From contig JADCLS010000019.1 in assembly GCA_026702845.1 (NCBI GenBank), positions 1-64,000 on the forward strand: a DNA stretch of 64,000 nt. The letters run 5' to 3'. Numbering within the stretch: position 1 is the stretch's first letter; each line of letters begins with the position of its first letter. Of the stretch, positions 1 to 63,113 are shown one piece after another. The notes under the pieces are model-generated. The model saw only the letters and a program-made list of their open reading frames with translations, did not search any database and was not told where the DNA came from. A program made the translations under genes and the position numbers. The stretch comes from Candidatus Heimdallarchaeota archaeon (GTDB lineage Archaea; Asgardarchaeota; Heimdallarchaeia; Heimdallarchaeales; Kariarchaeaceae).

Positions 1-2
1 GC

Positions 3-137
3 AAGATCAGAGGTTTTGTTGCCTCTGACCGAGGCAAGCAAACCCTGGAACGGTTTGCCACCATGTTTGAGACATGGAATCTTAGAGGAAATAATCCCTA
101 CGATGAGATTCTTGGGATATTAAGTTGTGGAAGTTAA
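3..137 (+). mobile_element. IS66-like transposase, C-terminal end (partial)
   Basis: An open frame enters from the window edge and stops with TAA at 135-137; 44 residues are visible. The stretch RGFVASDRGKQ followed by FETWNLRGNNPYDEIL matches the C-terminal pattern of IS66-type transposases (family knowledge: a G-F-R-S-x-x-G segment, then a W-x-T-x-x-x-R-G-x-N-P-hydrophobic segment). The base composition is richer in G+C than the following 4 kb. The same frame stays open directly after the stop into a truncated restriction gene, so this is most easily read as the 3' end of an insertion sequence that landed in res. The element boundary must lie between the stop and about 156; a run of six G at 142-147 is the only notable feature, and the terminal inverted repeat cannot be confirmed without the other end. 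Confidence 0.6.
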
Positions 138-2201
138 GTTAGGGGGGTAAACAAGTACCAATTTAGTATTAATGTAATATATAAATCTGAAATAAATACT
201 TCAAAATTAGAAACAGTAATTTATCTAACTAATATTCAACAATTATACTCTAATACCGAATCTGTAAATACAATAATAAAAAAAGCAGGGGTTATTTCAG
301 GATCAGATTTTCAAATAGAAAAAAATGAGTTGATTGATAGATCGACACCAGATAATCCGTTATTTAATTCAATAATTAATGGAAATAATCTAATCGTTAT
401 GAATGATGAAGCTCATCATGTTCATTCTGAATACCTAACATGGAATAAAACAATAGTTAAAATCAATAACAAGCTGAAAAAAACTTCAAATTCAAGAATA
501 ATCTCCCAAGTTGATTTCACTGCGACTCCTAGGTATTTGGATGATCAATCAAGATTATTTGATCATATAATTTATGATTATCCACTTTCTTCAGCAATTA
601 AGGATGGAATAGTTAAATTTCCAAAAATTGGTTCCTTGGAAAACATTCCTAATATTGAAACTGATGATTTTGGATTAATGAATCAATATCAAATTCAAGC
701 TGGTATTCAAGTCAGAGAAGAGTATGAGACATTATTAGAAAAATTAGGAAAGAAAGCAGTTTTATTTATAATGGCAGATAATAACAGAAATGCAGATCAA
801 GTATGGAATTTTATAGTAAATCAATATCCAAGGTACAAATCAAGTGAAGTATTGTTAATACATACTATAGATAGAGGAAATAAGAAAGGAGAATTATTGG
901 ATCAAGAAGAAACAGAATTGATTCAGGCTGCCAGAACTATTGATAATTTAGATAATCCCTTTAAAATAATAGTTAGTGTTCTTATGCTGAAAGAAGGATG
1001 GGATGTAAAAAGTGTTGTTTCGATAATTCCTCTAAGATCATATCAATCTCAAATCTTAGTTGAGCAAACTCTAGGTAGAGGACTTAGAAAACAATTTAGT
1101 CTTGAACAAAAAGAAGAATTAACTATAATTGAGCATTCAAGCTTTGTACCATTAATTCGATCAGCCTTAATTTCTGAAGGATTAGATAAAGATACATTTG
1201 AAATGTTCAAAATTGATGCTGCTAAGCAGAATCTACCAAAACCTGGTGCAATTCTTGTTTTTCCAGAAATTTCAAATATCCATCTAAATCTTAGAATACC
1301 AATTTTATCTGGTGGATATTTTTTAGAAACTGATGTTTTTCAAAATTTAAATTGGAATCAATTTCCTAAAAAACAAATGCAAATTGATAAAATTGAGATT
1401 AGAGATGCAAAATATTATGAGAAGATATATGCTAAAGATGAAATTATCAGGGAATTAGACTTAGATTTTGTTTACTATTATAATATAAATCAATATCTAA
1501 CATATTTAGTAAAACGAATTATGAAAAAATTACATATTTCGACTTCGTTAACACAATTTTTACCTAAATTTAAAAATTATATACAGAAGGATTTTTTTGA
1601 TAAGGAAATAATTTATTCTGATGAAGAAATTATGAAAAAATTAAATCATCCATTAGTTATAAAAAACATATATGAAATATTTAAAACAAAATTTTCAGAA
1701 CTCACGATAAAAGAAAAAGAGTTTAATAAATCAAATCAATATTTTGAGGTATCTCAGACACCAAATCGGTATGTTTCCAAAAAAGTCATTTCAAACAAGA
1801 AGAGTATCTTTAATTTTACAGAAATCGATAGTTCGTTAGAAGAAGAGTTTAGTAGGTACCTTGATAAAGAAAACGAAATTGTTTCATTCTGTAAAATTAC
1901 TCCTGCAATGAGATTTTATCTATATTATAATCATAATGGATTTCTAAAAAGATATTTACCTGATTTCTTTGTTAAGGACATTAATAATAAATTCTATCTT
2001 GTTGAAACCAAAGGAGAAGGATTTATTGATAAAAAGTCAACTGATTTAAAACGGATAGTAGGTGAGAATTGGACAAAGAGAGCTGGTGAGGATTGGACAT
2101 ATTTATTTATAGAAGAAAACTTTTTCAAGGAAATTGGCATAAAATTATCATTTCAAGAACAAGTTACAGAAATTAGGAGGCAGAAATATGTTGAAAATTA
2201 A
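138..2201 (+). pseudogene. res: Type III restriction endonuclease subunit (res), 5'-truncated by an insertion
   Basis: Type III Res subunits are ATP-dependent translocases with a C-terminal nuclease that cut together with Mod. This frame is open from 138, but the first usable start is a TTG at 330. Residues encoded at 138-330 already match the family (LTNIQQLY segment before the DEAH box), so the coding sequence extends upstream of any start and has lost its front, including the Walker A motif. Motif II is visible as NDEAHH (near 400), motif III as DFTATP, motif VI-like as QTLGRGLRK (near 1075). The C-terminal PD-ExK nuclease is present (LPDFF, then ETKGEG near 1960-2010). Intact Res proteins are about 850-1000 residues; 688 codons remain. 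The insertion sequence at 1-137 explains the loss. It overlaps mod by 14 nt. Restriction activity is very unlikely. Confidence 0.8.
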
Positions 2202-4005
2202 TTTTAATAAGCCTAAAATATCATTTAATGTTCCATTGCAAATTTTGGAAACATATAATGCTTATGAAGATCATAAAAGAAATAAAGTTAATCATTCGAC
2301 TGAATCAATAAAAACTACCACTCACAAAGGTGTTCAGTATAAAGATCTTGTGCAATTTTTTGATTATTTAGATGACAATGCAAATAACAATAATGGGGAA
2401 GATTATTGGTACAATTTACTTATATGGGGTGATAATTTGTATGCTTTAAATTCCTTAAAATCAAAATTTACTGAAAAAATTAAATTAATATATATTGATC
2501 CTCCATTTTATACAGGTACGGATGAGGTAATTGACATACCGATTGGACTAAGCAATAAGACCATCAAACAAGGACCATCAGTAATTCAGGATATTGCTTA
2601 TAAGAATATCTGGTACGGCAAAAATCCTGCGTATTCATTTGCTCATTGGTTTTATGAACGGGTAATTGAAATGCATAAATTACTTAGAGATGACGGTTTT
2701 ATTGTTGTTAGATTTGATTATCATTTTGGGCATTATTCGAAAATTGTGTTGGATCAAATTTTTGGACCTCAAAATTTCATCGGAGATTTTCCTGTCAGAA
2801 GAATGACTAAAACAGTAACAGAAAAATATTTAAATACTCAAAAACATTTAATTCATCAATTTGATAATTTATATATTTATCAAAAGACATCAAAAGCAAA
2901 ATATCAAATTGATATTACTAAGGCAAAAAGGGTAAATCAAGACGAAATTGAAACAAAATCAAACAACAACATCTGGTTAGATATTGTAGGTTACGAAAAA
3001 ACCAAAAAAACCTTATATCCAACTGAAAATTCAATAGAATTATTAAAGCGAGTGATAACTACTTTTAGTAAAAAAGATGACCTTGTCGCAGACTTCTTTT
3101 CTGGATCTGGTACAACGTTAGCTGTTGCTTCTGAGTTAGAAAGAAAATGGATTGGGGTTGATCTTAGCAGATATTCAATAAATGAAATCAAAAAACGAAT
3201 ATTGAATAATAAGAAACAAATTCCATTTCAATTACTGAACTTAGAAATGTACAATAAACACCTAGTTTTAATGCAAAATTTAAAAGATAATCAATCGAAA
3301 AAGCATATTTCTGATAGTTTAGATGAATATTACAAATATATTGTTAAAGCTTTTAAAGGTGAATACATAACAGAGAATCCTTTTATTCATGGTAAAAAAC
3401 AGGACGCATATATTCATGTTGGTAATATAGATACGATGATTTCTCCAACTGAGATTAAAAGCGTGATGGAAGAAGTGAAAAAATTAGGTGGAGATAAATT
3501 AATTATATTAGGATGGGATTTCATGATGGAAGCAACGTTTTTTAAGAAATTAATTCAAAAAGAGGAAAAGATTACAGTTGAATTGAAAAAGATACCTAGT
3601 GATTTACTATACAGATCTAATAAAGGAAATTTACCATTTATAGATTTACCATTTGTTGATATAATACACGAAATTGATCCAGTAAAGAGAAAAATTAAAA
3701 TCAGAATAAACGATGTGATAGTATCGTCTGAGGAAAATTTAGATTCGATTTTGACAGATAATAATTTTGAAAAAATTGATTTAATTGATTTTTGGGCAAT
3801 TGACTGGGATTACGATTCAATTGAACTATTTAATGCGCAAGAGATTTCGTACAGAAAAATTGGGGCCGGAAGAAAAATAACAAATAGTGTCAAAGATTCG
3901 TTTCATTATCAATATAAACAACCAGGTCGATTTATGATTGTAATAAATTTTGTTGATATTTTAGGTCATGATACAACAGAGTATATAGAAGTAGAGTTCA
4001 ATTAA
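2188..4005 (+). CDS. mod: Type III modification methyltransferase (Mod)
   Basis: Predicted DNA N6-adenine methyltransferase of a type III restriction-modification system, 605 residues. The catalytic motif IV is DPPF at residues 104-107 (IYIDPPFYTGTD) and the SAM-binding motif I is FSGSGTT at about 304-310, so the order is that of beta-class enzymes, with the presumed target-recognition region between them. The ATG at 2188 overlaps the end of res and is preceded by a strong ribosome binding site, AGGAGG at 2175-2180. The C-terminal 250 residues are less conserved and may contact Res. The order res-mod is the reverse of many type III loci. Because res is broken while mod is intact, the protein probably survives as an orphan methylase. 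It is convergent with the transposition operon that starts 13 bp downstream and may be cargo of that element. Confidence 0.85.
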   Translation: MLKINFNKPKISFNVPLQILETYNAYEDHKRNKVNHSTESIKTTTHKGVQYKDLVQFFDYLDDNANNNNGEDYWYNLLIWGDNLYALNSLKSKFTEKIKLIYIDPPFYTGTDEVIDIPIGLSNKTIKQGPSVIQDIAYKNIWYGKNPAYSFAHWFYERVIEMHKLLRDDGFIVVRFDYHFGHYSKIVLDQIFGPQNFIGDFPVRRMTKTVTEKYLNTQKHLIHQFDNLYIYQKTSKAKYQIDITKAKRVNQDEIETKSNNNIWLDIVGYEKTKKTLYPTENSIELLKRVITTFSKKDDLVADFFSGSGTTLAVASELERKWIGVDLSRYSINEIKKRILNNKKQIPFQLLNLEMYNKHLVLMQNLKDNQSKKHISDSLDEYYKYIVKAFKGEYITENPFIHGKKQDAYIHVGNIDTMISPTEIKSVMEEVKKLGGDKLIILGWDFMMEATFFKKLIQKEEKITVELKKIPSDLLYRSNKGNLPFIDLPFVDIIHEIDPVKRKIKIRINDVIVSSEENLDSILTDNNFEKIDLIDFWAIDWDYDSIELFNAQEISYRKIGAGRKITNSVKDSFHYQYKQPGRFMIVINFVDILGHDTTEYIEVEFN

Positions 4006-4018
4006 TGATCTTTTAGAT

Positions 4019-5308
4019 TTATGAAATCCTCAAAACTTCTAATTTATAATCCTCCCAGTTGTTAATACCTAAATCCTTCCAATAACCTCTATCGTAAATC
4101 AAGCTGTAAATAGTCCTGAGATTTCTTTTTGAAGGTAATTTACCATTTGCATCATAAAAATTCAAACCTTCTTTTAATGCTCTATTTAATCCTCTCTTTC
4201 CCTTGTAATATCCATTAGCTTTCATATTTATTTTCCCGAATGTAAACTGGAGAAAATCATTAAATCTAAAAATCCCAAATCTTTTCCAATAACCATTCAT
4301 AATAGCCTGATTAATGGCCTTGAGATCTCTTCTTTTTGGTAGCCTACCTTTATTCATCTCAAACAATTTAGCTTCTTCTTGTGCTTTTTCCAATCCCTTC
4401 TTACCTTTGTATGCAACATATTTGTTATGTCGCATATTAATTACTCCTGTTGTTTTTGATAGAAATTCATTCCAGTTTAATATCCCAAATGCGATCCAAT
4501 TACCATTATCAATTACCCTTGAGATATGCTGAAGATCTGAAATCCTTGGGTTTTTATTATATTTAATTTTGAATTGCTTTGTTTCATTCTGAGCCAGTTT
4601 CAATCCTTCCTTTCCTTCATACAATGAATAATTAATTGATCTGTCCACATTTACATCATCAAATACATGTTTGAGAAAGTCATTCCATTTGAAAACACCC
4701 ATTTCTCTCCAGTATCCTTCAGTGATCTTTGTTTTAATGGTTATTAGATCATTGGATTTGGGTAGTCTTCCTTCTTTCTGTGCAAATTCTTTTGCCTCTC
4801 GAACTGCATTTTCAAATCCCGTACTTCCAACATAATGTCCCCACTCCTTATTCTTTGTTTCTCCAAATATTTGATTCAGCAATTCATTCCAAGTTGTGAT
4901 ACTGTATTTTCTCCATCTACCTTTTCGTATTGCTCCAGATAATGAAATGAATTGTTTTGAGAGTGGAAGTTCTTCATGCCGTTTGTAATATTTTCGCAGT
5001 TGATATTTGGCCAATTCCAAACCCAATAATTCTTTCCACCCATTGGATTCAAATAGAGCATCCGTTAGGCATCGGTCTTCACTCAACCAGTAGCAAACAT
5101 CCCTCAGTAATTTAGGTTTTATTCCCGATTGCATAGGATTATTATCAACATAACCATTTTTGATAAAGCCTGGAATTATTTCTAATAAATCTTTGACTAA
5201 TTTAGACAAATATTCACCCAATAATTCCCTATCCTCTACAGCCCAGATATTTGGATTTGATAAAACCTGAATATTGTTGTCAATTGGTTGAAATTCCTTG
5301 ATTAGCAT
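4019..5308 (-). CDS. Putative target-selection protein of Tn7-like element; five HEAR-like repeats
   Basis: 429-residue basic protein, third gene of the transposition operon, 14 nt after tnsC. Residues 90-150, 161-218, 232-289, 302-359 and 370-427 form five tandem repeats with the pattern G-K-x-G-L-x-x-A-x-x-E, then G-R-L-P-x-x-x-D-L, then G-Y-W-x-x-F-G-I-x-x-W-N-D-F-L. This resembles the homing-endonuclease-associated repeat (HNH_repeat type), a small helical DNA-binding unit usually found in tandem. Residues 1-90 are distinct and match nothing I recognise. There is no paired-cysteine zinc finger, so it is not an evident TniQ/TnsD protein, although it holds their place in the operon. Inference: it reads target DNA and recruits TnsC. 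Alternatives are a regulator or a cargo protein. Start ATG at 5308; no strong ribosome binding site, so translation may depend on tnsC. Confidence 0.6.
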   Translation of the reverse strand: MLIKEFQPIDNNIQVLSNPNIWAVEDRELLGEYLSKLVKDLLEIIPGFIKNGYVDNNPMQSGIKPKLLRDVCYWLSEDRCLTDALFESNGWKELLGLELAKYQLRKYYKRHEELPLSKQFISLSGAIRKGRWRKYSITTWNELLNQIFGETKNKEWGHYVGSTGFENAVREAKEFAQKEGRLPKSNDLITIKTKITEGYWREMGVFKWNDFLKHVFDDVNVDRSINYSLYEGKEGLKLAQNETKQFKIKYNKNPRISDLQHISRVIDNGNWIAFGILNWNEFLSKTTGVINMRHNKYVAYKGKKGLEKAQEEAKLFEMNKGRLPKRRDLKAINQAIMNGYWKRFGIFRFNDFLQFTFGKINMKANGYYKGKRGLNRALKEGLNFYDANGKLPSKRNLRTIYSLIYDRGYWKDLGINNWEDYKLEVLRIS

Positions 5309-5322
5309 GGTTTTCGCCTGAT

Positions 5323-6558
5323 TTAGGAATCAATTATATTACCATCAACATCATGAATGGCATATTTTGGATGATTTGTCCTATAATGCCTAAGTAGAGC
5401 AGCTCCTGATTTATAGGGTTTGTTGACGTAAGGCGATTTACAATCTCGAACTTTACACCTCAAATCATTGATGTCGTATACTATTATACCCGTCTGTTCC
5501 TCTGCTAGCATCTTTCCAAGTGTGCGGTAATTGTTTTCGTCATCAAATTCCTCATCTTCAAGATTTATCTCCGTACCGTCAATAATCACTTTGGTATAAT
5601 CATCCAGAGTAGGATAAAATCTGCCTGAATTGAGGGCTCGTTTGGTGGCTTCTCGTATTATCTCTACAGCGAGACCAGGTTTTCCTAGTGATCTTTCATA
5701 CAGCACGGTAGCATGTTTTGGATTGATTACCTCGTCATTTTCCTTATCAAACACAACTAGTTCCCATTCTCTTGAAACTCCTATTTGGACAAAGTCATCA
5801 AAAATCTGCCACAGAAAATCTGAAAAAGCATCTTCATTCAATCCCTTTAGGTGAATAGTATGCGTTCTGCCCTGTATCCAATTCTCAACCTTGAAAATAG
5901 GTAGGGCTTCGGGTGTTCCAACAAGTATGAAACAAGTTTTTAATCTCTGATCTGCCCAATTTTCTCCATTAAGTAAGTCCTTGATCACCTCGAAAATTGA
6001 TGGCAGGTTTACATTTTTTGCCTTCAGTAGACGCTGTGATTCATCCATCATGAACAGCCTTACCTGATTGATATTACAGTATTTGATTACTCTATCAATC
6101 AACCGTGTTCTAGTTTGTTGTAGCTTTTCCCAATTCTTCAATTGCTTTGGATCTACCTGGCCACCGAGCACATCCAATAACCACAAAAGAAATTGTTCTC
6201 CTGTTCGTATATCATCTGGGATATTTTTCCTTAAAATAGGGAATTTATCCTTCTCCCAGAGTTTTTTGTATTCTTTGTGGAATAATGCCTGTGAATATTT
6301 CAATAGATATGTTTTACCCACATTATAATCTCCCCAGAATAGTACTATTCGCCCTCTATCATTGCTATCCTTTGAATAATCGAGAAATCTTGATCTCAAT
6401 TCAGTTAGCAATATGCTCTCTGCCTGCTCAAACATGTAAAATGCATTTCTTGATGTGATCTGATCCAGAATCATCTGAATTTTCTTATTTTTAGGTCTTC
6501 TAACCAATTCTATATGTTCCTCTGGAATTTGAAATTCCTCAATATTAGTTCCAGTCAT
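5323..6558 (-). CDS. tnsC: TnsC-like AAA+ ATPase
   Basis: Transposition regulator ATPase that in Tn7 relatives forms filaments on target DNA and links target selector to transposase. Numbering from the ATG at 6558 (411 residues): Walker A GDYNVGKT at 76-83, Walker B LFMMDE ending at 173, sensor-1-like LVGTPEA near 212-218, and a lid region with GKPGLAVEII. The frame is open 17 codons further upstream, but the ATG at 6558 lies 1 nt after the tnsAB stop and has a GAGGT ribosome binding site inside the tnsAB end, so I chose it. The C-terminus carries Cys368-x4-Cys373-x17-His391-x4-His396, a C2H2-finger-like arrangement not typical of Tn7 TnsC. An acidic stretch (EDEEFDDEN) precedes it. The family call is firm; the role of the tail is inference. 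Confidence 0.85.
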   Translation of the reverse strand: MTGTNIEEFQIPEEHIELVRRPKNKKIQMILDQITSRNAFYMFEQAESILLTELRSRFLDYSKDSNDRGRIVLFWGDYNVGKTYLLKYSQALFHKEYKKLWEKDKFPILRKNIPDDIRTGEQFLLWLLDVLGGQVDPKQLKNWEKLQQTRTRLIDRVIKYCNINQVRLFMMDESQRLLKAKNVNLPSIFEVIKDLLNGENWADQRLKTCFILVGTPEALPIFKVENWIQGRTHTIHLKGLNEDAFSDFLWQIFDDFVQIGVSREWELVVFDKENDEVINPKHATVLYERSLGKPGLAVEIIREATKRALNSGRFYPTLDDYTKVIIDGTEINLEDEEFDDENNYRTLGKMLAEEQTGIIVYDINDLRCKVRDCKSPYVNKPYKSGAALLRHYRTNHPKYAIHDVDGNIIDS

Positions 6559-6559
6559 C

Positions 6560-9127
6560 TTATTTACCTCTTTTCTTTCGTTTTTTACCTGAGAATGGAT
6601 TGTTCTCATTCTTTGGTATTCGTATAGTTTTTACGCTAGATCTCTTGGATTTAGGTTTTTCATCCTCTTGAAGATCTTCAAACTTTTTACCTGTAAATGA
6701 TGCAGGGCTTATAGATTTTCTACTCAACTTCATTTGATTTTCCTTTTGAGTTTCAAGCTCTCTTCTGTTTCTTTTTGATTTTTTAGTTTCTCTTGCCCTC
6801 TGTCTCAATTGACTGCGAAATGCCTTACCCTTTTCCTTTCTAAATAGGGCCAAAGTAATTCTCTCTCTATTTCTCTCTCTTATCAAGGCAATTTCTTTTT
6901 TCCAAAATGATAAGGCAATAGGTGCGTAGCCATAAACCTCAACAAATGTATTTGCCCAGCCATAACTCAGTTCTAATTCTATCGGTTTTTTTGTATCTGG
7001 ATGTAATGCCCAGATAATTCGAATATCTCTCATGTCATACAAAATAGTTAATTTTATCTTTCCCTTTTGATTATATAAAGTAATTAACTCTGAGCTTGTG
7101 TAATTCAGATTTGAAAATTCAATATTATCCTTCAATACTCTTGTCGTGGTTCCTAGAGCATTAACTTGAAGCAAGGTCACCTCTGATTTTTTAGTGGGGT
7201 GATCTCGTGCCTGCGGTAATATAATTGCTCCATTTCCCATTTCATAGTTCTCCATTCTGATACTTGGAGCAGGTAAACCATCATTGTATGTGTTGTTTAG
7301 ATGGTACTCATCCAAAATCCACGAGGCAAGCCATAGTTCGCTCTGTTGATAGGTAAAGATGACATTTGCTTCTGGATCAAAATCTGGATTTTCAAGTCGT
7401 TTTCTAATATTTGGTCTGAATCCATCTTCAGATAGTTCAAAAGCTATTGCTTCTTTTAGGATGTTGAACCAATTCTCAATATATGCTTTATACCTTGGTT
7501 TTCTGATTGGGGCAAATTCAAGGATAATATCATATTCAACACAGAATCTTCTAACATCCTGTGATCGATAATCCATCCCATTATCCACAAGTATCAGAAC
7601 TGGAAATCCTTGTATCTCCCAGTTAGGGTAATAATCTCCTTCCTTGAAGATATTTGAAATAAATCGATCTTTGGGAAGAATTGATTGAACCAGAGTTTCG
7701 AGTACTGATTGTCTATTTATTGGATTGAGTGATAATTCAAAACCAGTTATCATCCTGGAATATACATCAATTGCTGCACACAGATTAGGAGTGCCAATAC
7801 TCCTTTTTACCTCTTCATCCTGAATAAACAAATCAAAGGGTGTGTTATCAAATTGCAGTACCTGCATTGGCATAATCGCTCCTTGGAATGATTTCAGGGC
7901 AGGTTCTAAATCTCTCTTTCTTTTTCTTCCCTTTTTAGCTACTTCTATGTCATGGTAAGAAGTATTTTCCTTGATATATCTCCAGAAACTGGAATAGCTT
8001 GGAGGATCATCCTCTTGATCCCAAGAGCCCTCAACTATTTCTTCATACGCTTTTTTCACGGAGTAATTTGGATTTAAGAAAGCCTTTCTCCCTTTCTCAA
8101 GTATCTCCAGCGTAAAACTATCCCAGGTCTTATTTCTACCTGATTTTGAGTATTTATCTTTCAATCCAAACTTCCCTTCTTCCTCATATTTCTTTACCCA
8201 ATAATATACTGAGCTAATAGATACTCCATGTTTTGATTCAAAGTTGGCTCTCCATTCCTTTGAACGTTTAAAGCTTGGAGTTTTTAGAAATTCTTTGACT
8301 ATTTTTTCCTTTTTACTTGTTTTCTTGTTCTCCTCAACCACTGTTTCTTTATCGATTTCTTTGACAGAACTAACCTCAATAGAGAAGATTTCCTCCTCAT
8401 CTCTCATTTGTAGTGCTTCATCAAGTTCAATCCATAATGGAGAAAATGGAAAAATGTTTTTAGTCTTCTTTTTGATTATTGTCGTATTTGTAATTGGTTT
8501 GTCAGAGAAGGTATCAACAAACACATACCCATGATAAATTGCATAGCACAGAACTTGGCTGGCTTTATTAACATTTGTCTTCAATAATTCAGATATTCCA
8601 TAACATGCAGACTTAAAGTCTAATCCATCCGTTGGAATAATACTTGTCATCTTATCCATATATCTATCATTACTGGATACTTTAGCAGATCCCAATGTAA
8701 ACCAAATATTTGACATTCTTGCAGATCGAATATCGATTTCAGTAAGTACAATAAAGCTCATTCCTCTAGCTTCAGCAAATTCTTTGCATGCTTCCCACCT
8801 ATCCTTGAATTGATCACTGTTTTGTTGATAAGTATCATCATCCTTGATTTCAACCAGGATTTCCAAACCATTGGTAAATCGAACATGAACATCTGGGGTA
8901 TATGATTGGTTATCCCCATAAACAATCTTAATTGGTTGGTGCTGGTATTGAGCTACATGATCATCATGATCTAGCAAAAGAAAAAAATCACGCTCAATCT
9001 GAGATTCATATTCAACAACTCCATCTTTTACCTTTTTAGAGGGAAATACTCCTCGATTTCCCCTCTCTTTGGCAGGGATTGTCCTTACTGCACTTGAGAA
9101 ATCATGATCTGATAATTTCAATGTCAT
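6560..9127 (-). CDS. TnsA-TnsB fusion transposase
   Basis: 855 residues joining the two Tn7 transposase subunits. Residues 1-150 are a TnsA-type restriction-like endonuclease: E45 (SQIERDF), D79 (YTPDV) and E93-x-K95 (VEIKDD), the subunit that nicks the 5' ends so the element moves by cut-and-paste. Residues about 260-400 hold helix-turn-helix DNA-binding segments. The DDE/RNase H-like core of TnsB follows: D427 (QFDNT), D515 (LVDNG) and E551 (YIENWF), with 35 residues between the last two. A Mu-type beta-barrel region follows and the last 120 residues are a very basic tail, as in TnsB proteins that hold TnsC. TnsA and TnsB are separate in classical Tn7; natural fusions are known in several branches. 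All catalytic residues are present. The start ATG (9125-9127) lies in the innermost TnsB-type site, and a TATA-like region about 25 bp upstream suggests a leaderless transcript. Confidence 0.88.
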   Translation of the reverse strand: MTLKLSDHDFSSAVRTIPAKERGNRGVFPSKKVKDGVVEYESQIERDFFLLLDHDDHVAQYQHQPIKIVYGDNQSYTPDVHVRFTNGLEILVEIKDDDTYQQNSDQFKDRWEACKEFAEARGMSFIVLTEIDIRSARMSNIWFTLGSAKVSSNDRYMDKMTSIIPTDGLDFKSACYGISELLKTNVNKASQVLCYAIYHGYVFVDTFSDKPITNTTIIKKKTKNIFPFSPLWIELDEALQMRDEEEIFSIEVSSVKEIDKETVVEENKKTSKKEKIVKEFLKTPSFKRSKEWRANFESKHGVSISSVYYWVKKYEEEGKFGLKDKYSKSGRNKTWDSFTLEILEKGRKAFLNPNYSVKKAYEEIVEGSWDQEDDPPSYSSFWRYIKENTSYHDIEVAKKGRKRKRDLEPALKSFQGAIMPMQVLQFDNTPFDLFIQDEEVKRSIGTPNLCAAIDVYSRMITGFELSLNPINRQSVLETLVQSILPKDRFISNIFKEGDYYPNWEIQGFPVLILVDNGMDYRSQDVRRFCVEYDIILEFAPIRKPRYKAYIENWFNILKEAIAFELSEDGFRPNIRKRLENPDFDPEANVIFTYQQSELWLASWILDEYHLNNTYNDGLPAPSIRMENYEMGNGAIILPQARDHPTKKSEVTLLQVNALGTTTRVLKDNIEFSNLNYTSSELITLYNQKGKIKLTILYDMRDIRIIWALHPDTKKPIELELSYGWANTFVEVYGYAPIALSFWKKEIALIRERNRERITLALFRKEKGKAFRSQLRQRARETKKSKRNRRELETQKENQMKLSRKSISPASFTGKKFEDLQEDEKPKSKRSSVKTIRIPKNENNPFSGKKRKKRGK

Positions 9128-9227
9128 TCCAATACTATATGAAAATATACTTTATAATATTTATATCATTCTGAATCTTTTTGAAAAAATATATGCTATT
9201 CCAAAACTTTTTGAAAAATATATTACA
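9125..9227 (+). repeat. Tn7-like transposon end with TnsB-type sites and tnsAB promoter
   Basis: Three imperfect 21-bp direct repeats, 9125-9145, 9167-9187 and 9197-9217, share the pattern YATTCYRAA followed by TGAAAA. The outermost is followed after 10 bp by an ACA terminus at 9225-9227. The last 16 bases (9212-9227) match the terminus-like copies at 10555, 10890 and 11719 (in reverse) at 14 of 16 positions. A TATA-like tract (9151-9166) for tnsAB lies between the first two sites, so transposase binding would repress its own promoter, as known for Tn7. Weaker copies at 9221-9241 and 9285-9305 lie outside the proposed end. Confidence 0.65.
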
Positions 9228-9568
9228 CGACTTATTGAAAATACCTCCAAAATAAACAATAATGAGAGAGTAACTTCTTTTTTTCATTCCAGATCATTTT
9301 GAAATCAGTCAGATCGATCGATCGAGTTCAGGAAGTTGTTTAGTTTGATTCCCCACATTTTATTCATTTTGCAAAAAAAATCAGAGATCATCTATCTTTT
9401 TAAAATTTACTTGTCACCAAGAATCACCAATTTTCTGTAACCAGCTATTGAAATCATTAATCATTGGTAAAGTTTTCACAAATGCAAGTATTGTGTTATT
9501 GTTGGAATTAATTAATAACAATTGTTGGATAACTGATGCCAAACAATGTGATTATGATTTAAATAGAT
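9228..9568. other. Gene-free flank of the transposon end
   Basis: No credible gene in 341 bp. It holds a fifth, weaker 21-bp site-like repeat at 9285-9305 and a (GATC)x3 palindromic run at 9312-9323. It separates the proposed transposon end from the 3' end of the next gene and may contain the attachment site or remnants of an earlier insertion. Confidence 0.5.
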
Positions 9569-10453: not shown

Positions 10454-10554
10454 TAAAAAATTATATTGTAAGATTATTTCTACAAAATATTGATCAAATA
10501 AAAGAAATACACAAATTATGACTAAAAAATTCGATCACACATTAATACACGTTA

Positions 10555-10641
10555 TGTCATTTATTTTTCATTTTCACAACGGGAATGAAATTTTCAGAAT
10601 AAATGGGAATAAGGAAAAATTTTTCAGAAATAGTGGGAATG
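10555..10641 (+). repeat. Solo Tn7-like terminus A
   Basis: Begins TGTCATTTATTTTTCA (10555-10570), followed by three site-like units starting at 10565, 10591 and 10621. Read on the minus strand, the units at 10591-10611 and 10621-10641 each match the outer TnsB-type site at 9197-9217 at 15 of 21 positions. The 10-bp distance between terminus and first site equals that at the tnsAB end. The orientation puts the interior to the right, opposite to the tnsAB end. No transposase gene belongs to it. It lies in a gene-free stretch (10454-10984). Confidence 0.55.
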
Positions 10642-10984: not shown

Positions 10985-11380
10985 TCAGAAATTTTTTAAT
11001 CGATCATCAAATGTCAAAATTTCATCACATCTCAGTAATTTGTTTTTAATTAAAACAACACAATCAGTAAAATTCAATGGTTTTCGTTCACTTTTCTCAT
11101 CTTGTAATAATTCCCATGCAGATTTAATGATTGCTTGATTGCTATACACAATATTTGCTAGTTCCTCTGAAAATAAAATAGATCCCCAATCAATTACATC
11201 CTGAATTGTTCTTCCCTTAAGTACAATATTTAAGAATTCATCAATAACATAATCTGAGATGAATACCTCTGAATTGCTATTTTCAGATATTTTTTCAAAA
11301 ATGTCATTTGCCTCTTTATGGTATTTATCTTTTGGATTCGCTAATCCAACCATAAATGATGTATCTATAAAATATCGCAT
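10985..11380 (-). CDS. vapC: VapC-type PIN-domain ribonuclease toxin
   Basis: 131 residues with a PIN fold: Asp6 (FIDTS), Glu48 (VIDEF), Asp106 (NFTDC) and Asp125/126 (TFDDRL) form the expected acidic metal site. VapC toxins cut tRNA or rRNA when released from the antitoxin. The start ATG is 2 nt after the stop of the upstream antitoxin gene, so the pair is translationally linked. It lies between two transposon-terminus copies, in keeping with mobile cargo that stabilises its element. The specific RNA target cannot be told from sequence. Confidence 0.85.
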   Translation of the reverse strand: MRYFIDTSFMVGLANPKDKYHKEANDIFEKISENSNSEVFISDYVIDEFLNIVLKGRTIQDVIDWGSILFSEELANIVYSNQAIIKSAWELLQDEKSERKPLNFTDCVVLIKNKLLRCDEILTFDDRLKNF

Positions 11381-11382
11381 AA

Positions 11383-11652
11383 TTAAGATTCTCCATACAA
11401 CAAATCATCAATTAAATCAGGATTAGTTTCAATCTTCCAAGGTTTCTGTAATCCTTTGATTTTTTCAAATACTCCTGATTTTGGCATCTTTTTTGGTTCT
11501 AGAAATAATTCGATATTTGATTCACCAAATTTTATTAATAAATCAATAATCTCTGTTTGTGTGAATTTAAGGTCATAATTTATTAGTAAATTTGCTGATA
11601 ATTTATCTAAAGATCGTTTTGTCTGATCTGACACTTTAATTGAACTAGCCAT
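11383..11652 (-). CDS. vapB: VapB-like antitoxin
   Basis: 89 residues, directly upstream of vapC. The N-terminus (SSIKVSDQTKRSLDKLSANLL) has the alternation expected of a ribbon-helix-helix DNA-binding domain. The C-terminal half, with several Pro and Trp-Lys, would be the disordered toxin-binding part. By analogy the protein neutralises VapC and represses this promoter. The start ATG at 11652 is consistent with the domain start. The call rests mainly on position and size. Confidence 0.7.
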   Translation of the reverse strand: MASSIKVSDQTKRSLDKLSANLLINYDLKFTQTEIIDLLIKFGESNIELFLEPKKMPKSGVFEKIKGLQKPWKIETNPDLIDDLLYGES

Positions 11653-11718: not shown

Positions 11719-11734
11719 TGTCATTTATTTTTCA
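11719..11734 (+). repeat. Solo Tn7-like terminus C
   Basis: A third exact copy of TGTCATTTATTTTTCA. Only the terminus is well conserved; clear 21-bp units do not follow. It overlaps the stop codon and last codons of the peptidase gene that ends at 11721, which would happen if insertion or recombination created this 3' end. Confidence 0.45.
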
Positions 11735-12596
11735 AGTTGATAATTGTACTAAAGGTAGGATAATCTAGAAAATCACTCTCAAAAAAAGATATCATTCTTT
11801 GTTTCAAATCTTCAGGTTTGAGTAGGGATGATAGAGAATTATTTTGTGCTAATGAATGACAAAATAGAAAACCTATGTAATATCCTGCTCTATATCTAGT
11901 TTCGGAGAAAGGACCGATGAAATATTCATCATAAAACTCTTGATCATCCTTTACATTAATCTCTTTGAGAATTTTTTCCTTATGTTTGACTCTGTTCTTA
12001 TCTACTCTATCAATTAACCCTTTAGGCAACGTAAGTAGAAGCTGAGCCGCTGTTGCCTCTGGATTCATAATATGAGTAATATAAGTGGCCAATCCTTCAA
12101 AATAAAATGCCTCCCATGCCTCATTCAAGAGCTTGTATTTTGTATAATGATATAGATGGAATAATTCATGGTGGATCAGGGGTGTGATATCAGTTCCCCT
12201 ATGAATTCTTGATATTACATCCAATCCAAAGCATAGCGTTCTTCTCCCATCAATCATCCTAATACCTCCATCAAACTGTCCAAAACTATGAACGATTAAT
12301 ACTCGATTCTTGATAGAAAAATCAGGGAAAAATTTCTTGAAACTATGGGTCGATGATTCAATAATATTAGGTATCTTTTCAGCATACTGTGAAAATATAT
12401 CCTCAATATCTTCAAAATTCTTCATAGCGTTTTCAAAATTTTTCTCAGTAATACTACTTTTGATCAATTTATCAAAACCAGGACTTAATGGAGCAACAAT
12501 CTCATCATACAATTCACTCGCAAATTCTGGTTTCTCCTTTGCTTTATTGTAGAACTTTAGAAATTCAGATCCCAAATTTAAGTATTCAATTTCCAT
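11721..12596 (-). CDS. Predicted zinc metallopeptidase (gluzincin-like)
   Basis: 291 residues, no signal peptide, likely cytosolic. The motif H143-E144-L-F-H147 gives the two zinc histidines and catalytic Glu of HExxH peptidases; E167 in YFEGLATY, 20 residues on, is the expected third ligand. This layout recalls the DUF2268 group of predicted Zn-dependent proteases. The substrate is unknown. The last eight codons coincide with terminus copy C, so the natural C-terminus may have been replaced. It lies downstream of no other gene in its direction and may be cargo of the accessory region. Confidence 0.65.
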   Translation of the reverse strand: MEIEYLNLGSEFLKFYNKAKEKPEFASELYDEIVAPLSPGFDKLIKSSITEKNFENAMKNFEDIEDIFSQYAEKIPNIIESSTHSFKKFFPDFSIKNRVLIVHSFGQFDGGIRMIDGRRTLCFGLDVISRIHRGTDITPLIHHELFHLYHYTKYKLLNEAWEAFYFEGLATYITHIMNPEATAAQLLLTLPKGLIDRVDKNRVKHKEKILKEINVKDDQEFYDEYFIGPFSETRYRAGYYIGFLFCHSLAQNNSLSSLLKPEDLKQRMISFFESDFLDYPTFSTIINLKNK

Positions 12597-58185: not shown

Positions 58186-60084
58186 TTGTATACAGACATA
58201 GGAAAATACCTTTTATATCTGGCCATATTAATGGCCTGGGCTGTTTATATACTGAGCCTGCGAAAAAAATCATATACTACGCTATTCCGATTGAATCTAG
58301 CATCTTTTCTAGGGATTTTTATTAGTTATATCATGATGCTAATGGTTCTATTGAGTAAGGATTACTCAATGGCAATCGTGTATAATTATACATCAAGTAG
58401 TATGAGCCTTGCGGAAAGGATCTCTGCTCTTTGGGTGGCACGAGCACCTATCATGACCTTATGGGGACTATACATGATGTTGATCTCAGTTATCACCTTA
58501 TATTATGTGAGAAATGAATTTAATGATCCAGTAGTGCAAAATATGACAAAACTTATTTTCTTGTTCTCCGCTATTATCATTTCATTTGCCGTTTCTGCAC
58601 GACCTGGTGCCTTTGATCAGCTGGAAGGAGATGTATTTCCCAATAATGGAAAGGGTCTCGAACCCTCTCTCCTCTCTAAATGGAATCTTTTACATCCACC
58701 ACTGGCATTTTTAGGTTATTCATCCTTTATTGTTCCTTTTGCTGCTGGTATTGCCATCCTCAATGCCTATAAATCAGGAACCAAGATTTCATCTCGTATT
58801 TACTACCTTATTGATTTCTTCATGCTGCTGGCTTGGTGTCTCAACTCAATTCTGCTTCTAGCAGGATCTCTTTGGGGATATGAGGAGAACTGGAGTGGTT
58901 TCTGGGCTTGGGATCCAGTCGAGATTGCCTCAGTTGTCATGTGGGCTGGTGCGACACTATACTTCCACGTTAAGTCTCTGGTGGAACAAGATCATCCTCT
59001 GCGGCCTTTCACAGCTACATTGGGCTGGTTAGGTGTAGCATTTGCCTCATTCATAGTGAGGAGTGGTATTCTCTCAGGATTGCACAGCTATACCTCAGTG
59101 CCACAAACTATTGTCTTTGGATTGATGTTAGCAGGCTCTATCCTAGTTGTTACAATCACTGTCTTAAGATCTGGTGTTGCGCTTATTCCAGATCATATCT
59201 ACCAGATACTGGGCAGTACACGGAAAACCTCAGTAATTACATTCTGGTTGTTATTCTCACTTATTACTGTGAATGTCGTGGGTCTGACCATGCAAATCAT
59301 CAATGCCTTGGCATTTTCCAATGAGATCACTCCACGATGGTATTATATACCACTCAACTCAATAATCCTAATTTCACTTGCAGTGCTCCTTCCGCTATGT
59401 GAGATGAAATGGGAGCAATTAAAGTCAAAACCCCAGCTATATTATGTGATAGCTTTCTTCGTTGTCTCTTTAGTCTACTTCTTCCTCTCAGGCCTATCAA
59501 TCCTGTTAATTTTTGCAGCAGCAGTTGTTATGACTGCTCTTCTATTGCAGATCCAAATAACATTTGGAGCAATCCGTAATAAACACGCCCTGAAAAAGAT
59601 GGGTAGGCACCTAGTACATATAGCTACCTTACTTCTCATAGTATCTTATGTCTCTGGAAACTACAGTGGGGATCGTGTTTACAAACTGGTCGATCAGGAT
59701 CAAATGGTTACTATCGACGAATTTGACTTCAAGATCTGGGTCGACAGAATTATTGATCCTACAGGTGAGAATTCACGAATAGAGGTGAAAATCTATGATA
59801 TGGATGAAAAACTATTAGATACTTTGGCATTAACAGATGGATTTTACGGTGAGGAGAATGAATACTGGGTCAGAGGAGATTACTATGTCACCCCATTCTA
59901 CGATTTCTTCTTCCATCAAACCCATGAGAGTTTTAGTTTTCAGTTGAATGCTCCCATAGGATTGAATATTGATAAGGTTGCTAATGCCAATCTCTTTCGT
60001 TTTTCATTCTTTGCTGTCTTCTCACTTTCTATAATTTCAGTAGCAGCAATGACAAGAAGAAAACCATCTGTTTCTGTTGAGTAG
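58186..60084 (+). CDS. ccmF: CcmF-like cytochrome c haem lyase
   Basis: 632 residues, about 14 membrane helices. The family signature GKGLEPSLLSKWNLLHPPLAFLGY (155-178), with haem-ligand-type H170, and the WWD haem-handling domain W230-G-Y-E-E-N-W-S-G-F-W-A-W-D (230-243) are both visible; a periplasmic domain near 525-600 precedes the last helix. CcmF attaches haem to CXXCH proteins outside the membrane. TTG start supported by a GGTGAC ribosome binding site at 58174-58179. No other ccm gene is adjacent. The nearby CXXCH proteins are likely substrates. Confidence 0.88.
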   Translation: MYTDIGKYLLYLAILMAWAVYILSLRKKSYTTLFRLNLASFLGIFISYIMMLMVLLSKDYSMAIVYNYTSSSMSLAERISALWVARAPIMTLWGLYMMLISVITLYYVRNEFNDPVVQNMTKLIFLFSAIIISFAVSARPGAFDQLEGDVFPNNGKGLEPSLLSKWNLLHPPLAFLGYSSFIVPFAAGIAILNAYKSGTKISSRIYYLIDFFMLLAWCLNSILLLAGSLWGYEENWSGFWAWDPVEIASVVMWAGATLYFHVKSLVEQDHPLRPFTATLGWLGVAFASFIVRSGILSGLHSYTSVPQTIVFGLMLAGSILVVTITVLRSGVALIPDHIYQILGSTRKTSVITFWLLFSLITVNVVGLTMQIINALAFSNEITPRWYYIPLNSIILISLAVLLPLCEMKWEQLKSKPQLYYVIAFFVVSLVYFFLSGLSILLIFAAAVVMTALLLQIQITFGAIRNKHALKKMGRHLVHIATLLLIVSYVSGNYSGDRVYKLVDQDQMVTIDEFDFKIWVDRIIDPTGENSRIEVKIYDMDEKLLDTLALTDGFYGEENEYWVRGDYYVTPFYDFFFHQTHESFSFQLNAPIGLNIDKVANANLFRFSFFAVFSLSIISVAAMTRRKPSVSVE

Positions 60085-61614
60085 GTGACTTTATTGCGTA
60101 GGGTAGTTGTGATTCTTATCATCCTGTTGTTTCTTCAAACAGCTCCGACACATGCAGTCGAAGTGAATGTAGATGTTAATACCTTTATTGATGAGCTGAT
60201 CACACGGTTGCTTGATGATGTGGAGTACAATGAAACCGGACATTTCATTGGTTGGAAGGATAGGTTGTATACTAAAGATAATCAATTAATCTTGTATCAG
60301 AAGGGATATACTGTTGGTGCAGCAGGGATTGCAGATGTACTATTATCCTACTACGATCAACCTGAGGTGAAAGCAATAGTGGATCAAACTGCCAATTTTC
60401 TTGTAACGACTACCGTTCCTGAGGATATTGGGGTCTCCTGGGATCGCTTCTCCACATTCAGAGGGGGAAGTTATCTGGGATTGCGATATGGAACCATGGG
60501 TATCATCAAATTTCTGACCCACTATTATCAGGAAACCCAAAACACAACAATACTTGAGACTATCAATCTGGGATTGGAATATTTTTACTCACAAGAGGAA
60601 TCACCAGGGTTCTGGAGAATTGGAGAAGGAGAGTATATCACAACCTATTATGAGTATGGTCTCACAGGTATGGGTGACCAATTTCTCGAATTATACGATG
60701 TTTTTGAGGATGAGATTTTTATTACCAAAGCCAAAAATATTGCCAATCTGATAATCAATTTAGGTGTGTGGAAGGGAGCGATGTTTGAACTGTATTGGGA
60801 CCCGGAATACGTTGGATCCATTCATGATGAGGTGGTCTATGCCAGTATGAATTCAGGTGTCAGTGGTGTGATGGGTTATTTACTTGATCTCTATGATGTG
60901 ACTGGAAACTCTACCTATCTTGATGTGGCCATAGGATTGGGAAACACATTAGTAGAGCTTGAGATAAATGGTGCATTTGAACATGCAGCTATCGGATATA
61001 TTTCTGGATTTGGTTACAAAAATAAAAATTTTGTGGGATATACTGCTGGTTCTGCTGGTGTGGCAAGTTCACTGTTCCGATTATATGAGTATAGCCCGAA
61101 TTCAGAATTCATCCAGACCTGTGCCAATATAGAGACTTATGTCAATTCCATGAATTATGATAATGGTTCTGTATCTATAGGCCAAGATTACATCAAATAT
61201 CAGTTTACTGGGATGGATCTTGGAGGTATAGGGCTCATAATGTATTATGCTCAATTATATGAACGCTATGGATTACAGGAATATATCGATCGAATCAATA
61301 ACTTACTCAATCATCTTCATGAGCTATGGGTGGAATACGATTATATACCTGTGGATGAGAATCATATCTCAATTTTTGGGTTCTCCTACAACATAGAAAA
61401 GGGACTTGCAGGACTAATACTGGCACTTCAACAGATAAATTCAGTAAGTTTTGACCAAGCTGAGGAAGATGGGTACATTGATGCACTTGATCGTGTTTCA
61501 TTTGTTCCCACAGATACATCAACTGAAGAACCCACATCATATATTATGGTGATGCTACCCTTGCTGTTTCCATTAATTCGAAAATCAAGACAATTTACTA
61601 AAACACACTCTTAA
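60085..61614 (+). CDS. Secreted LanC-like toroid protein, copy 1
   Basis: 509 residues. Signal peptide (about 1-24), C-terminal membrane helix. In between, repeated helical hairpins each end in a Gly-rich turn: GAAGIADVLL, LRYGTMGIIKFL, YGLTGMGDQFLE, SGVSGVMGYLL, AGSAGVASSLF and MDLGGIGLIM, the pattern of the LanC alpha/alpha barrel. The Cys-Cys-His zinc ligands of lanthionine cyclases are absent, so it is not a classical cyclase. The GTG at 60085 abuts the ccmF stop; TTG at 60094 after GGTGACT is an equally good start. Tight linkage suggests a job in extracellular haem-protein assembly or surface-glycan handling. Confidence 0.6.
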   Translation: MTLLRRVVVILIILLFLQTAPTHAVEVNVDVNTFIDELITRLLDDVEYNETGHFIGWKDRLYTKDNQLILYQKGYTVGAAGIADVLLSYYDQPEVKAIVDQTANFLVTTTVPEDIGVSWDRFSTFRGGSYLGLRYGTMGIIKFLTHYYQETQNTTILETINLGLEYFYSQEESPGFWRIGEGEYITTYYEYGLTGMGDQFLELYDVFEDEIFITKAKNIANLIINLGVWKGAMFELYWDPEYVGSIHDEVVYASMNSGVSGVMGYLLDLYDVTGNSTYLDVAIGLGNTLVELEINGAFEHAAIGYISGFGYKNKNFVGYTAGSAGVASSLFRLYEYSPNSEFIQTCANIETYVNSMNYDNGSVSIGQDYIKYQFTGMDLGGIGLIMYYAQLYERYGLQEYIDRINNLLNHLHELWVEYDYIPVDENHISIFGFSYNIEKGLAGLILALQQINSVSFDQAEEDGYIDALDRVSFVPTDTSTEEPTSYIMVMLPLLFPLIRKSRQFTKTHS

Positions 61615-61646: not shown

Positions 61647-63113
61647 ATGCGTCTGCAAATTCTTATTCTCTTACTTCTTATTCAACTACCCCCTGCAGTC
61701 GCATCTCCCATAGATCTAGCATTTGATCTGGAGGATTTTCAGCAGACCCTTCTCGATGATCTTGCAGCGGGAGTGGTGTATGAAAATGGCAAATTCAAAG
61801 GTTGGCCCTTTAGAGATCTCTACACCCGTTCAGTTAATGATGAGTGGTATAATGGCTATAGTATGGGACAGGCAGGTATAGCTGAAACTCTGTTGATGTA
61901 TAATATTTCAGATTTGATTGATGATGTATTTGATCATTTCAATAGCAGTTATTTTGAGGAGAATGGAGGGTTAACATGGGCAAGAAAACCATATTTCAGG
62001 GATATTGGATGGACAGGTGTCCGTTATGGTACAGCTGGTATCCTACCAGTTTTATTGCAGTACGCTGACATTGGCTATGACATTGATCATCTCATTGATC
62101 CTGCAATCACTTGGTTGATATCCCAGCAAAGAGAGAGGGGAATGTATGCCATAACTGAAGGTGATTTCGTGACCACAGGAATGGAATATGGGATGACCGG
62201 TGTTGGAGAGTGTTATCTTAAGCTCTTTTCTGCACTGGAAAACCAGACCTATCTTGATCTTGCCTATGAAGTTGTGAATTCTCTGTTTTCCATGGGTAGT
62301 TGGAATGGAACACAATTCTCCGTTCCCTGGTCTCCTGATTTGCAAGGTTCCGATGATGCCTATGGTGCATTGGCCAGTAGAGGAATTGGAGAGGCAGGAA
62401 TAATAGAATATCTCCTGCATTTCTATGAGCTCTCGTCCAATGATACAATACTAGATCATGCAATAGGGCTTGGTAAGGAATTATTATCCAGAGAGGAGAA
62501 TGGAAGCTGGAAAGCATCATCAGAGGGATATGTTTCATATATTTATGTCAAGAATGACTATTTGGGAGGATATCCTACTGGTTCTGCAGGAATTGCACCA
62601 ATCATGCTTGCCTTATATGATCTCACTTCTGATGAACAGTTTCTAGCATCTGCAGCCAGGATCGAGGCCTATGTTACTTCATTGATTTCACCAGATGGTG
62701 GATTCCAACCAGCAGCTCAGATTGATAATTATGAATTTTCTGGTATGCTTGGCATTTCAGGGATTATTCAGTACTTCCTAGAACTCTATGCTCGTTTTGG
62801 TCAACAACGGTATCTAGATAATAGTCATCGCCTTCTCAACCATTTGTATACACGCTATTTGGATAATGGGATGCTTTTATGGGATTTCAAACAGCCAGAT
62901 TATGGTATCTCATACTATCTTGATGGAGGTATCTCAGGAGTGTTACAGGTATTGAATTATTATGCTAATGTAGATGCAGGATCACGTGATTATTCGAGCT
63001 ACTCAAACCTAATGTCACTGTCAAGTACTACAGAACAAACATCATTCCCAGTAATTGGCATTTTTTCTGTTATTATTCTCATATATGGGAAAAAAACATT
63101 AGGTAAACGGTAA
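61647..63113 (+). CDS. Secreted LanC-like toroid protein, copy 2
   Basis: 488 residues, paralogue of the preceding protein. Signal peptide about 1-19; alpha/alpha toroid with turns MGQAGIAETLL, VRYGTAGILPVLL, YGMTGVGECYLK, RGIGEAGIIEYLL, TGSAGIAPIML and LGISGIIQYFL; C-terminal membrane helix and basic tail (GKKTLGKR). Zinc ligands of LanC are missing here too. 32 nt after copy 1 and in the same operon as ccmF. Membrane-tethered, outward facing. Confidence 0.6.
   Translation: MRLQILILLLLIQLPPAVASPIDLAFDLEDFQQTLLDDLAAGVVYENGKFKGWPFRDLYTRSVNDEWYNGYSMGQAGIAETLLMYNISDLIDDVFDHFNSSYFEENGGLTWARKPYFRDIGWTGVRYGTAGILPVLLQYADIGYDIDHLIDPAITWLISQQRERGMYAITEGDFVTTGMEYGMTGVGECYLKLFSALENQTYLDLAYEVVNSLFSMGSWNGTQFSVPWSPDLQGSDDAYGALASRGIGEAGIIEYLLHFYELSSNDTILDHAIGLGKELLSREENGSWKASSEGYVSYIYVKNDYLGGYPTGSAGIAPIMLALYDLTSDEQFLASAARIEAYVTSLISPDGGFQPAAQIDNYEFSGMLGISGIIQYFLELYARFGQQRYLDNSHRLLNHLYTRYLDNGMLLWDFKQPDYGISYYLDGGISGVLQVLNYYANVDAGSRDYSSYSNLMSLSSTTEQTSFPVIGIFSVIILIYGKKTLGKR

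Follow-up and report, generated by a model that had tools for sequence, protein, structure and literature searches.

How does a transposon that is built like Tn7 choose its place of insertion when no TniQ/TnsD selector is found with its transposition genes? The question is raised by an operon in a 64,000-nucleotide stretch from Candidatus Heimdallarchaeota archaeon (positions 1 to 64,000 of contig JADCLS010000019.1, assembly GCA_026702845.1; hereafter the window), in which an initial annotation, made from the letters alone, had seen a Tn7-like element with a repeat protein in place of TniQ. Using a combination of profile searches, structure prediction and trees of relatives from Asgard genomes, we come to regard it as likely that this is an Asgard Tn7-like transposon in which TniQ/TnsD is replaced by a tandem-repeat protein, and that target selection falls to this protein, a modular array of helical DNA-binding units that loads TnsC.

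Three genes, tnsAB, tnsC and the repeat gene, follow one another head-to-tail on the minus strand of the window:

6560..9127, minus strand: TnsAB fusion (TnsA-like nuclease and DDE transposase), 855 residues; identified by Pfam, a solved-chain match, alignment and motifs
5323..6609, minus strand: TnsC/TniB-family AAA+ ATPase, 428 residues; identified by Pfam, a profile against solved TnsC and motifs
5371..5457, minus strand: C2H2-zinc-finger-like motif at the C-terminus of TnsC, residues 385-413; found by eye and regular expression
4019..5308, minus strand: repeat protein, 429 residues, with an N-terminal helical domain (about residues 1-91) and five helical repeats; proposed target selector
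4856..5035, minus strand: repeat unit 1, residues 92-151, 60.2 bits
4652..4831, minus strand: repeat unit 2, residues 160-219, 65.4 bits
4439..4618, minus strand: repeat unit 3, residues 231-290, 57.6 bits
4229..4408, minus strand: repeat unit 4, residues 301-360, 61.9 bits
4046..4204, minus strand: repeat unit 5, residues 369-421, 43.2 bits

Judged by sequence, TnsAB and TnsC of the window are intact Tn7-type proteins. TnsAB matches the TnsA-like N domain (PF08722, 7.7e-10) and Mu-transpos_C (2.4e-5), both over cut-off; its rve match (2.5e-6, 28.1 bits) stays under the cut-off of 32.6, and a sequence search against solved TnsAB/TnsB chains gives 5.3e-25 at best. The residues that we take to be the catalytic motifs, D79 and E93-x-K95 in the TnsA part and D427, D515 and E551 in the TnsB part, are all present and are invariant in an alignment of 15 TnsAB proteins. 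TnsC matches TniB over cut-off (2.8e-10) and carries the Walker residues in GxxxxGK and DE motifs, and a profile of six TnsC sequences, the window's own included, finds solved TnsC chains (best 4e-12). The repeat protein holds five units at a spacing of about 69 residues, which score 43-65 bits each with a repeat model built from relatives. The fusion with complete nuclease and DDE residues, the TnsC ATPase and the five tandem repeats in a 429-residue protein, all named in the initial annotation, are thereby borne out.

No Pfam family passes its cut-off in the repeat protein, and the TniQ core (PF06527) was not found in it at E<=5 by a search whose filters drop most weak matches. Structure prediction, proposed as a check together with the initial annotation, gave an all-helical AlphaFold model with a mean predicted local distance difference test score (pLDDT) of 82.9 and a predicted template-modelling score (pTM) of 0.40, against 91.3 and 0.52 for a model of two repeats; the modelled unit comprises three helices, one of them long and one short.

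Relatives of the operon

Among the main open reading frames of window positions 1-9311 there is no TniQ, and the left part of the element lies beyond the window (see below), so that the window alone leaves room for a distant one. A whole element is carried by a relative, L046, a contig of 6.7 kb from genome G005, to which L005 also belongs. This element of 5,274 bp has its right end at 598 and its left end at 5871 in the tns-plus orientation (TGTGAACTCTCAAAATGTTTGCTA and TGTGAACTCTCAAAATGATTGCAA, a terminal inverted repeat of 22/24) and is flanked on both sides by a 5-bp target duplication, CACAT. Only tnsAB, tnsC and the repeat gene are long genes; the 12 other open reading frames of at least 60 codons span only 63-94 codons, and there is neither a TniQ inside the element nor room for one among these frames. 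The element is built like Tn7, but the complete relative has no TniQ; a hidden TniQ, which would speak against the initial annotation, is excluded there, whereas the window's own element, with its left end beyond the window, falls outside this exclusion. Pfam supports TniB and the Mu-type TnsB domains PF09299 and PF09039 in L046, with no match for rve. Joining the two flanks of L046 restores an open frame starting MTTSTQSNQQ; the interrupted gene matches no family over cut-off, and when G005 and its relatives were searched (79 genomes) no homologue turned up in the other 78, so that this search yields no empty site. The repeat protein of L046 is found again as P0091, on three contigs of up to 21 kb.

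The window's order tnsAB, tnsC, repeat gene recurs in five Asgard genomes, at L001, L041, L045, L046 and L051, on three transposase backbones (tnsAB is decayed in L041, and L051 has tnsA and tnsB as separate genes). Homologues beside tnsABC in other genomes, for which the initial annotation had suggested a search, are therefore found. At all six loci the repeat gene keeps the same place and strand behind tnsC, with different transposases, and no TniQ follows it in the available sequence of each locus. The complete relative and this gene order support the view that the repeat protein stands in place of TniQ, while its part in targeting, and with it DNA binding, contact with TnsC and target specificity, is what we infer.

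A TnsC profile built from six repeat-type loci, searched in 227 Asgard genomes, gave 12 TnsC-like places in ten of them, six strong (E<=1e-125, five of which were in the profile by construction) and six weak. Next to the strong places stands the repeat gene in five, with the sixth, L092, cut by a contig end; next to the weak ones stand TniQ in four (fused to repeats in L002) and zinc-finger arrays in two (L004 and L089). In a TnsC tree of 13 rows, most of whose loci had been picked for their repeat gene or for similarity in TnsC, a branch with 86/90 support separates the seven repeat-type rows (counting L092, its selector cut off by the contig end) from the others, and none of 500 label shuffles was as clustered. 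In a TnsAB tree of 12 rows (without L041), the repeat label needs three changes, forced by the starred branches, and 94 of 500 shuffles were as low. Because repeat-type TnsC proteins group together and their transposases do not, TnsC and the repeat protein appear to travel as one module, and in the simplest reading of the trees they seem to make up a module for target choice that passes from one transposase to another. The C2H2-like pattern (C..C..H..H) at the C-terminus of TnsC recurs within this group, in the window, L041, L045 and L046; the L092 protein has a weak zinc-finger match below cut-off, and those of L001 and L051 are without the pattern.

Three proteins carry the same repeats fused to TniQ: P0009 (TniQ 5.9e-15), P0015 (3.8e-11) and L002 (6.6e-18). 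In P0009 and P0015 the N-terminal domain and repeats known from the window protein come after the TniQ domain; in L002 TniQ is followed by repeat units, one clear and one weak, in an element bounded by 25/26 inverted repeats 5.87 kb apart, at whose right end the contig begins. Since these fusions carry the repeats where TnsD carries its DNA-binding part, we suggest that the repeats hold the DNA-reading position.

Arrays of another kind stand behind tnsC in two Asgard-phylum genomes. C2H2 zinc-finger arrays are encoded at L004:7712-8731 (+), where the open reading frame runs to the contig end, and at L089:11651-12748 (+), each with seven zf-H2C2_5 stretches, and are possible target selectors. 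A 205-residue open reading frame at L089:12741-13355 (+) has a weak TniQ match (2.4e-4, below cut-off).

The repeat array and the alternatives

Six repeat proteins are basic, with isoelectric points of 9.2-10.0 (9.6 for the window protein), and uncut arrays comprise 3 to 13 units. Across 135 repeat rows, near-duplicates included, P24, I34, W43, W51 and F59 are constant at 83-99% (I34 at 88%, W43 at 83%), the three most variable positions are 32, 35 and 39, and 33, 36 and 42 are also high; these six variable positions lie on or beside helix 2, next to the constant I34 and W43. Helix 2 was picked as the reading helix only after the entropies had been seen.

The window and L041 have TnsC proteins that are 97% identical. 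Their repeat genes differ by 5.5% before and by 22.8% after a step near residue 334. A full scan gave this step a log-likelihood gain of 33.2, and the largest gain among 300 permutations, for which only every fifth position was scanned, was 8.8; the last 20 residues of the two repeat proteins align poorly. Synonymous divergence (dS) is 0.03-0.08 in units 1-3, 0.6-1.4 in units 4-5, 0.19 in the N-terminal domain and 0.245 in tnsC. Positive selection was considered for the repeat gene, whose ratio of nonsynonymous to synonymous divergence (dN/dS) is 0.26 against 0.06 for tnsC, and was rejected; because dS is uneven along the gene, we read the ratio as mosaicism. The pattern looks like an exchange of part of the array, as module exchange would give, in a comparison of one pair of which L041 is a decayed element; mismatch rates elsewhere in the operon also vary, from 0 to 23% per 90 bases.

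In the mechanism that we propose, the three-helix units would bind specific DNA side by side through their hypervariable exposed face, and the repeat protein, probably via its conserved N-terminal domain, would load TnsC next to the bound site. TnsC, by analogy with its family, would then act as an ATP-dependent matchmaker that recruits TnsAB, and TnsAB, to judge by its family and its intact residues, would cut the element out and join it to the target. The insertion would land beside the bound site with a 5-bp duplication, the duplication and the ends being those shown for L046. A bolder version, which we put forward tentatively and hold to be somewhat doubtful, is that the 3 to 13 units are interchangeable DNA readers, one per target segment, that the array loads TnsC directly, and that it is retargeted in nature by adding, losing or swapping units.

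Tn552, IS21 and Mu offer a different precedent: a TnsC-type protein alone chooses the DNA, with little specificity, and these elements have TnsB-like and TnsC-like proteins without TniQ. They share the missing TniQ with the type of element studied here but are not known to have a TnsA domain or an operon-linked repeat gene of this kind. Were targeting here of that kind, TnsC alone would pick the DNA with low specificity and the repeat protein would be an accessory, a tns regulator or a target-immunity factor. We consider this unlikely, given that the TnsC proteins of the repeat type form one group that spans three transposase backbones and that the same repeats occupy the position of the TnsD DNA-binding part in the three TniQ fusions, although L046 interrupts a gene near its start and its TnsB half has Mu-type domains. 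Also on the side of this reading, a survey reports tniQ/tnsD in 73-97% of transposons per clade, so that some are without a detected one (PMC8649781).

That the repeat protein needs a TniQ in trans, from another element of the cell, appears quite improbable to us. The model for it is TnsF of Tn6022, a selector other than TniQ that resembles tyrosine recombinases and works with, and through, a short TniQ (PMC10293859). Like TnsF, the repeat protein is a proposed non-TniQ target selector encoded with tns genes, but none of the tyrosine-recombinase-like domains with zinc fingers that mark TnsF was matched in it by Pfam, and fold searches gave no significant match at all. The genomes of L045 (G006) and L041 (G007) each have one TniQ match on another contig, whereas PF06527 at E<=1e-3 finds none in the draft genomes G001 (L001), G005 (L046) and G050 (L051) in a search whose model a divergent TniQ escapes; that such a TniQ can be missed is seen from the genomes of L004 and L089, which are absent from the results. 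Repeat-type TnsC proteins are also only 17-26% identical to the TniQ type, with some repeat-type pairs hardly closer.

The wider distribution of the repeats was followed through two protein searches, with the window protein and with a 17-row alignment (E<=1e-10, best 7,991 candidates scored), which returned 15 proteins each in overlapping lists that both include the query's own record (P0007, P0012 and P0089 are from Promethearchaeota), and through a genome search that found a repeat match at E<=1e-6 in 16 of the 227 Asgard genomes. With L001, L002 and L005 and 20 further contigs, 23 contigs in all were examined. Viral contigs gave no confirmed relative of TnsC or of the repeat alignment, and the repeat protein found no match in phage records. 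Plasmid records matching the window TnsAB number 4,425, all below 60% identity, the best-ranked at 28%.

Several observations weigh against the reading of the repeat protein as a TniQ-replacing selector. A repeat gene or fragment stands beside tns genes in only eight of the 23 contigs (L001, L002, L005, L041, L045, L046, L050 and L051); five others (L042, L043, L052, L054 and L055) have a repeat gene of at least three units and no tns match in the available sequence, six (L047, L048, L049, L053, L056 and L057) contain nothing beyond short repeat fragments and have no tns match, L044 is cut at the contig edge, and L058, L059 and L060 are below threshold. The ten uncut repeat genes of at least three units divide evenly, five in tnsC operons (L001, L041, L045, L046 and L051) and five outside, so that the repeat family is not confined to transposons; the count over all contigs is less favourable than this split. 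The concern that homologues would lie mostly away from tns genes thus receives a mixed answer, although five arrays directly behind tnsC would, we infer, be far above chance for genes scattered over several-megabase genomes. Sampling was partly circular, since it was by way of the repeat gene that most repeat-type loci had been collected. In L046 and L051 TnsA scores below cut-off, and in L045 and L092 it has no match at E<=0.001. The split in the TnsC tree comes with moderate support, long branches and a near-copy pair (window and L041), and TnsC identity within the repeat type falls to 23%, within the 17-26% range seen towards the TniQ type. Positions 49, 56 and 57 of helix 3, and likewise position 11, are about as variable as helix 2. 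The helical model has no significant PDB match (best E 0.45 for the whole model and 5.4 for two repeats), which is no evidence of a new fold. As to insertion sites, whose comparison had also been suggested at the outset, L046 provides the CACAT duplication, and its insertion hits a gene within the first four codons, which is not an evident safe site; no empty target site was found, the right flank of the window's element having short matches in 41 of the 227 Asgard genomes (best 70% over 0.6 kb), and no shared attachment site was recognised.

Some of the repeat genes found away from tns genes have neighbourhoods of their own. At L042:7834-13887 (-) a nine-unit repeat gene lies in a tight three-gene run, again without a tns match, together with a protein matching the PADLOC candidate PDC-M34B (4.1e-16) and a 782-residue protein with a weak NERD match below cut-off; this run is possibly a second use of the repeats. 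Small three-unit genes at L054:1373-1993 (-) and L055:9564-10193 (-) have similar neighbourhoods in two genomes. L005 is a different case: its repeat gene at 1-666 (+), truncated by the contig start, is immediately followed downstream by a tnsAB of the window's family (1175-3664, +), an arrangement that may reflect two elements inserted at one place. That the repeat gene is ordinary cargo, such as a defence protein, standing behind tnsC by chance is highly improbable despite the L042 run, given its same place and strand behind tnsC at six loci with different transposases and the lack of other cargo in L046.

Element ends, cargo and neighbouring sequence

At the right end of the window's element, four TnsB-binding-site-like repeats lie within 9126-9306 (four matches at no more than three mismatches, one of them the pattern itself, against 0.15 expected in shuffles):

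9126..9146, minus strand: TnsB-binding-site-like repeat 1, innermost, overlapping the tnsAB start
9168..9188, minus strand: TnsB-binding-site-like repeat 2
9198..9218, minus strand: TnsB-binding-site-like repeat 3
9286..9306, minus strand: TnsB-binding-site-like repeat 4, outermost
9128..9311, minus strand: probable right end, with terminus TGACTGATTTCAAAATGATC read leftward from 9311 and a candidate 5-bp target copy at 9312-9316

The initial annotation had ended the element at 9227, a position that we reject: it lies inside the array of TnsB sites, and related elements terminate before the outermost site. In elements with related TnsAB the terminus TGAGT comes immediately before that site, where the window has TGACTGA at 9311 (TGACTGATTTCAAAATG). 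Because this sequence resembles termini that are supported by inverted repeats in such elements (25/26 in L002 and in L006, 23/26 in L003), the right end is probably at 9311 rather than 9227; the same-position sequence of L001 and L007, elements with a single end located, also resembles the window terminus. A candidate at 9357 (TGTGGGG) was rejected as well, since the related termini directly before the outermost site point to 9311. The 5-mers flanking L003 match at three of five positions, L002 and L006 begin at contig ends, and no convincing second end was found for L001, L045, L051 or L004.

On the left, no end was found in window positions 1-4019, where the best candidate, 18/26, was judged noise. 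A restriction-modification pair at 330-4005 starts 13 bases past the repeat gene, for which reason it is probably transposon cargo, and the element must extend left of 4019, with its left end beyond the window:

330..2201, plus strand: type III restriction enzyme (res)-like open reading frame, apparently with an incomplete N-terminus; presumed cargo
2188..4005, plus strand: type III DNA methyltransferase (mod)-like open reading frame; presumed cargo

Directly upstream of the incomplete res, the end of an open reading frame at 1-137 (+; 44 residues, no Pfam match) perhaps belongs to an insertion sequence that interrupted res. Beyond the right end, at 10590-10640 (+), two TnsB-site-like repeats on the opposite strand score 14.2 and 13.1, the best plus-strand matches in the 64 kb, and are perhaps a relic of another element's end. 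The 17-base sequence ATGTCATTTATTTTTCA occurs in three direct copies at 10554, 10889 and 11718; a PIN/antitoxin-like pair (10985-11652) lies between the second and third copies, and the third overlaps the stop codon of a protease-like open reading frame (11721-12596). These copies may reflect repeated integration at the 3' end of a gene. Far from the element, adjacent proteins at 60085-61614 and 61647-63113 (+) resemble part of LanM-type lanthipeptide synthetases (6e-22 and 4e-18) and adjoin a CcmF/NrfE-like protein at 58186-60084 (3e-31), all three below curated cut-offs.

Known systems and meaning

The likeness to Tn7 and Tn7-like elements extends to the TnsA nuclease, the TnsB DDE transposase, the TnsC/TniB ATPase, the subterminal arrays of TnsB sites in the window, the inverted repeats at both ends (L046, L002 and L006) and the 5-bp target duplication (L046). 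The difference is that L046 has no TniQ/TnsD and a repeat protein stands behind tnsC, in a branch for which tniQ/tnsD is called ubiquitous in a survey of 80,028 loci (PMC10293859). According to the same paper, TnsD-like selectors form several helix-turn-helix domains in the long C-terminal part that follows their TniQ core (PMC10293859). With TnsD of Tn7 and the TnsD-like proteins of CRISPR-associated transposons, the repeat proteins, as proposed selectors, share a design of multiple helical units, and P0009, P0015 and L002 combine TniQ with repeats; the window protein differs in being an array with a short N-terminal domain and no TniQ match. A second likeness is to the homing endonuclease associated repeat HNH_repeat (PF18780), whose Pfam cut-off is passed by P0006, P0007, P0009, P0010 and L052, but which has no match in the window protein, where no HNH nuclease was matched either.

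The open-licence literature that we searched, as far as its texts were accessible, holds no description of such a repeat-protein selector for Tn7-like elements. By term search, the main text of a mobile-element study of circular Asgard genomes contains none of Tn7, TnsA, TnsC and TniQ, and the 80,028-locus survey has no occurrence of Asgard or HNH (PMC10293859). A 2021 survey reports no Tn7-like elements in any archaeal genome then available (PMC8649781). With the finding outlined here, Asgard archaea join the hosts of such elements.

CRISPR-guided insertion tools are built on Tn7-like transposons. If our preferred reading is true, the present element would represent a three-gene, protein-guided insertion system, 5.3 kb in L046, in which the requirements of TnsC could be studied apart from TniQ and which supplies a candidate for a modular DNA reader. 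Should the more tentative version with interchangeable units also hold, it would be a third way of aiming transposons, beside TnsD-type proteins and CRISPR guides, whose repeat code could be deciphered in much the same manner as that of transcription activator-like effectors, and the zinc-finger arrays of L004 and L089 would solve the same problem in parallel. If confirmed, a repeat array that takes the place of TniQ would give transposons a new means of selecting insertion sites.

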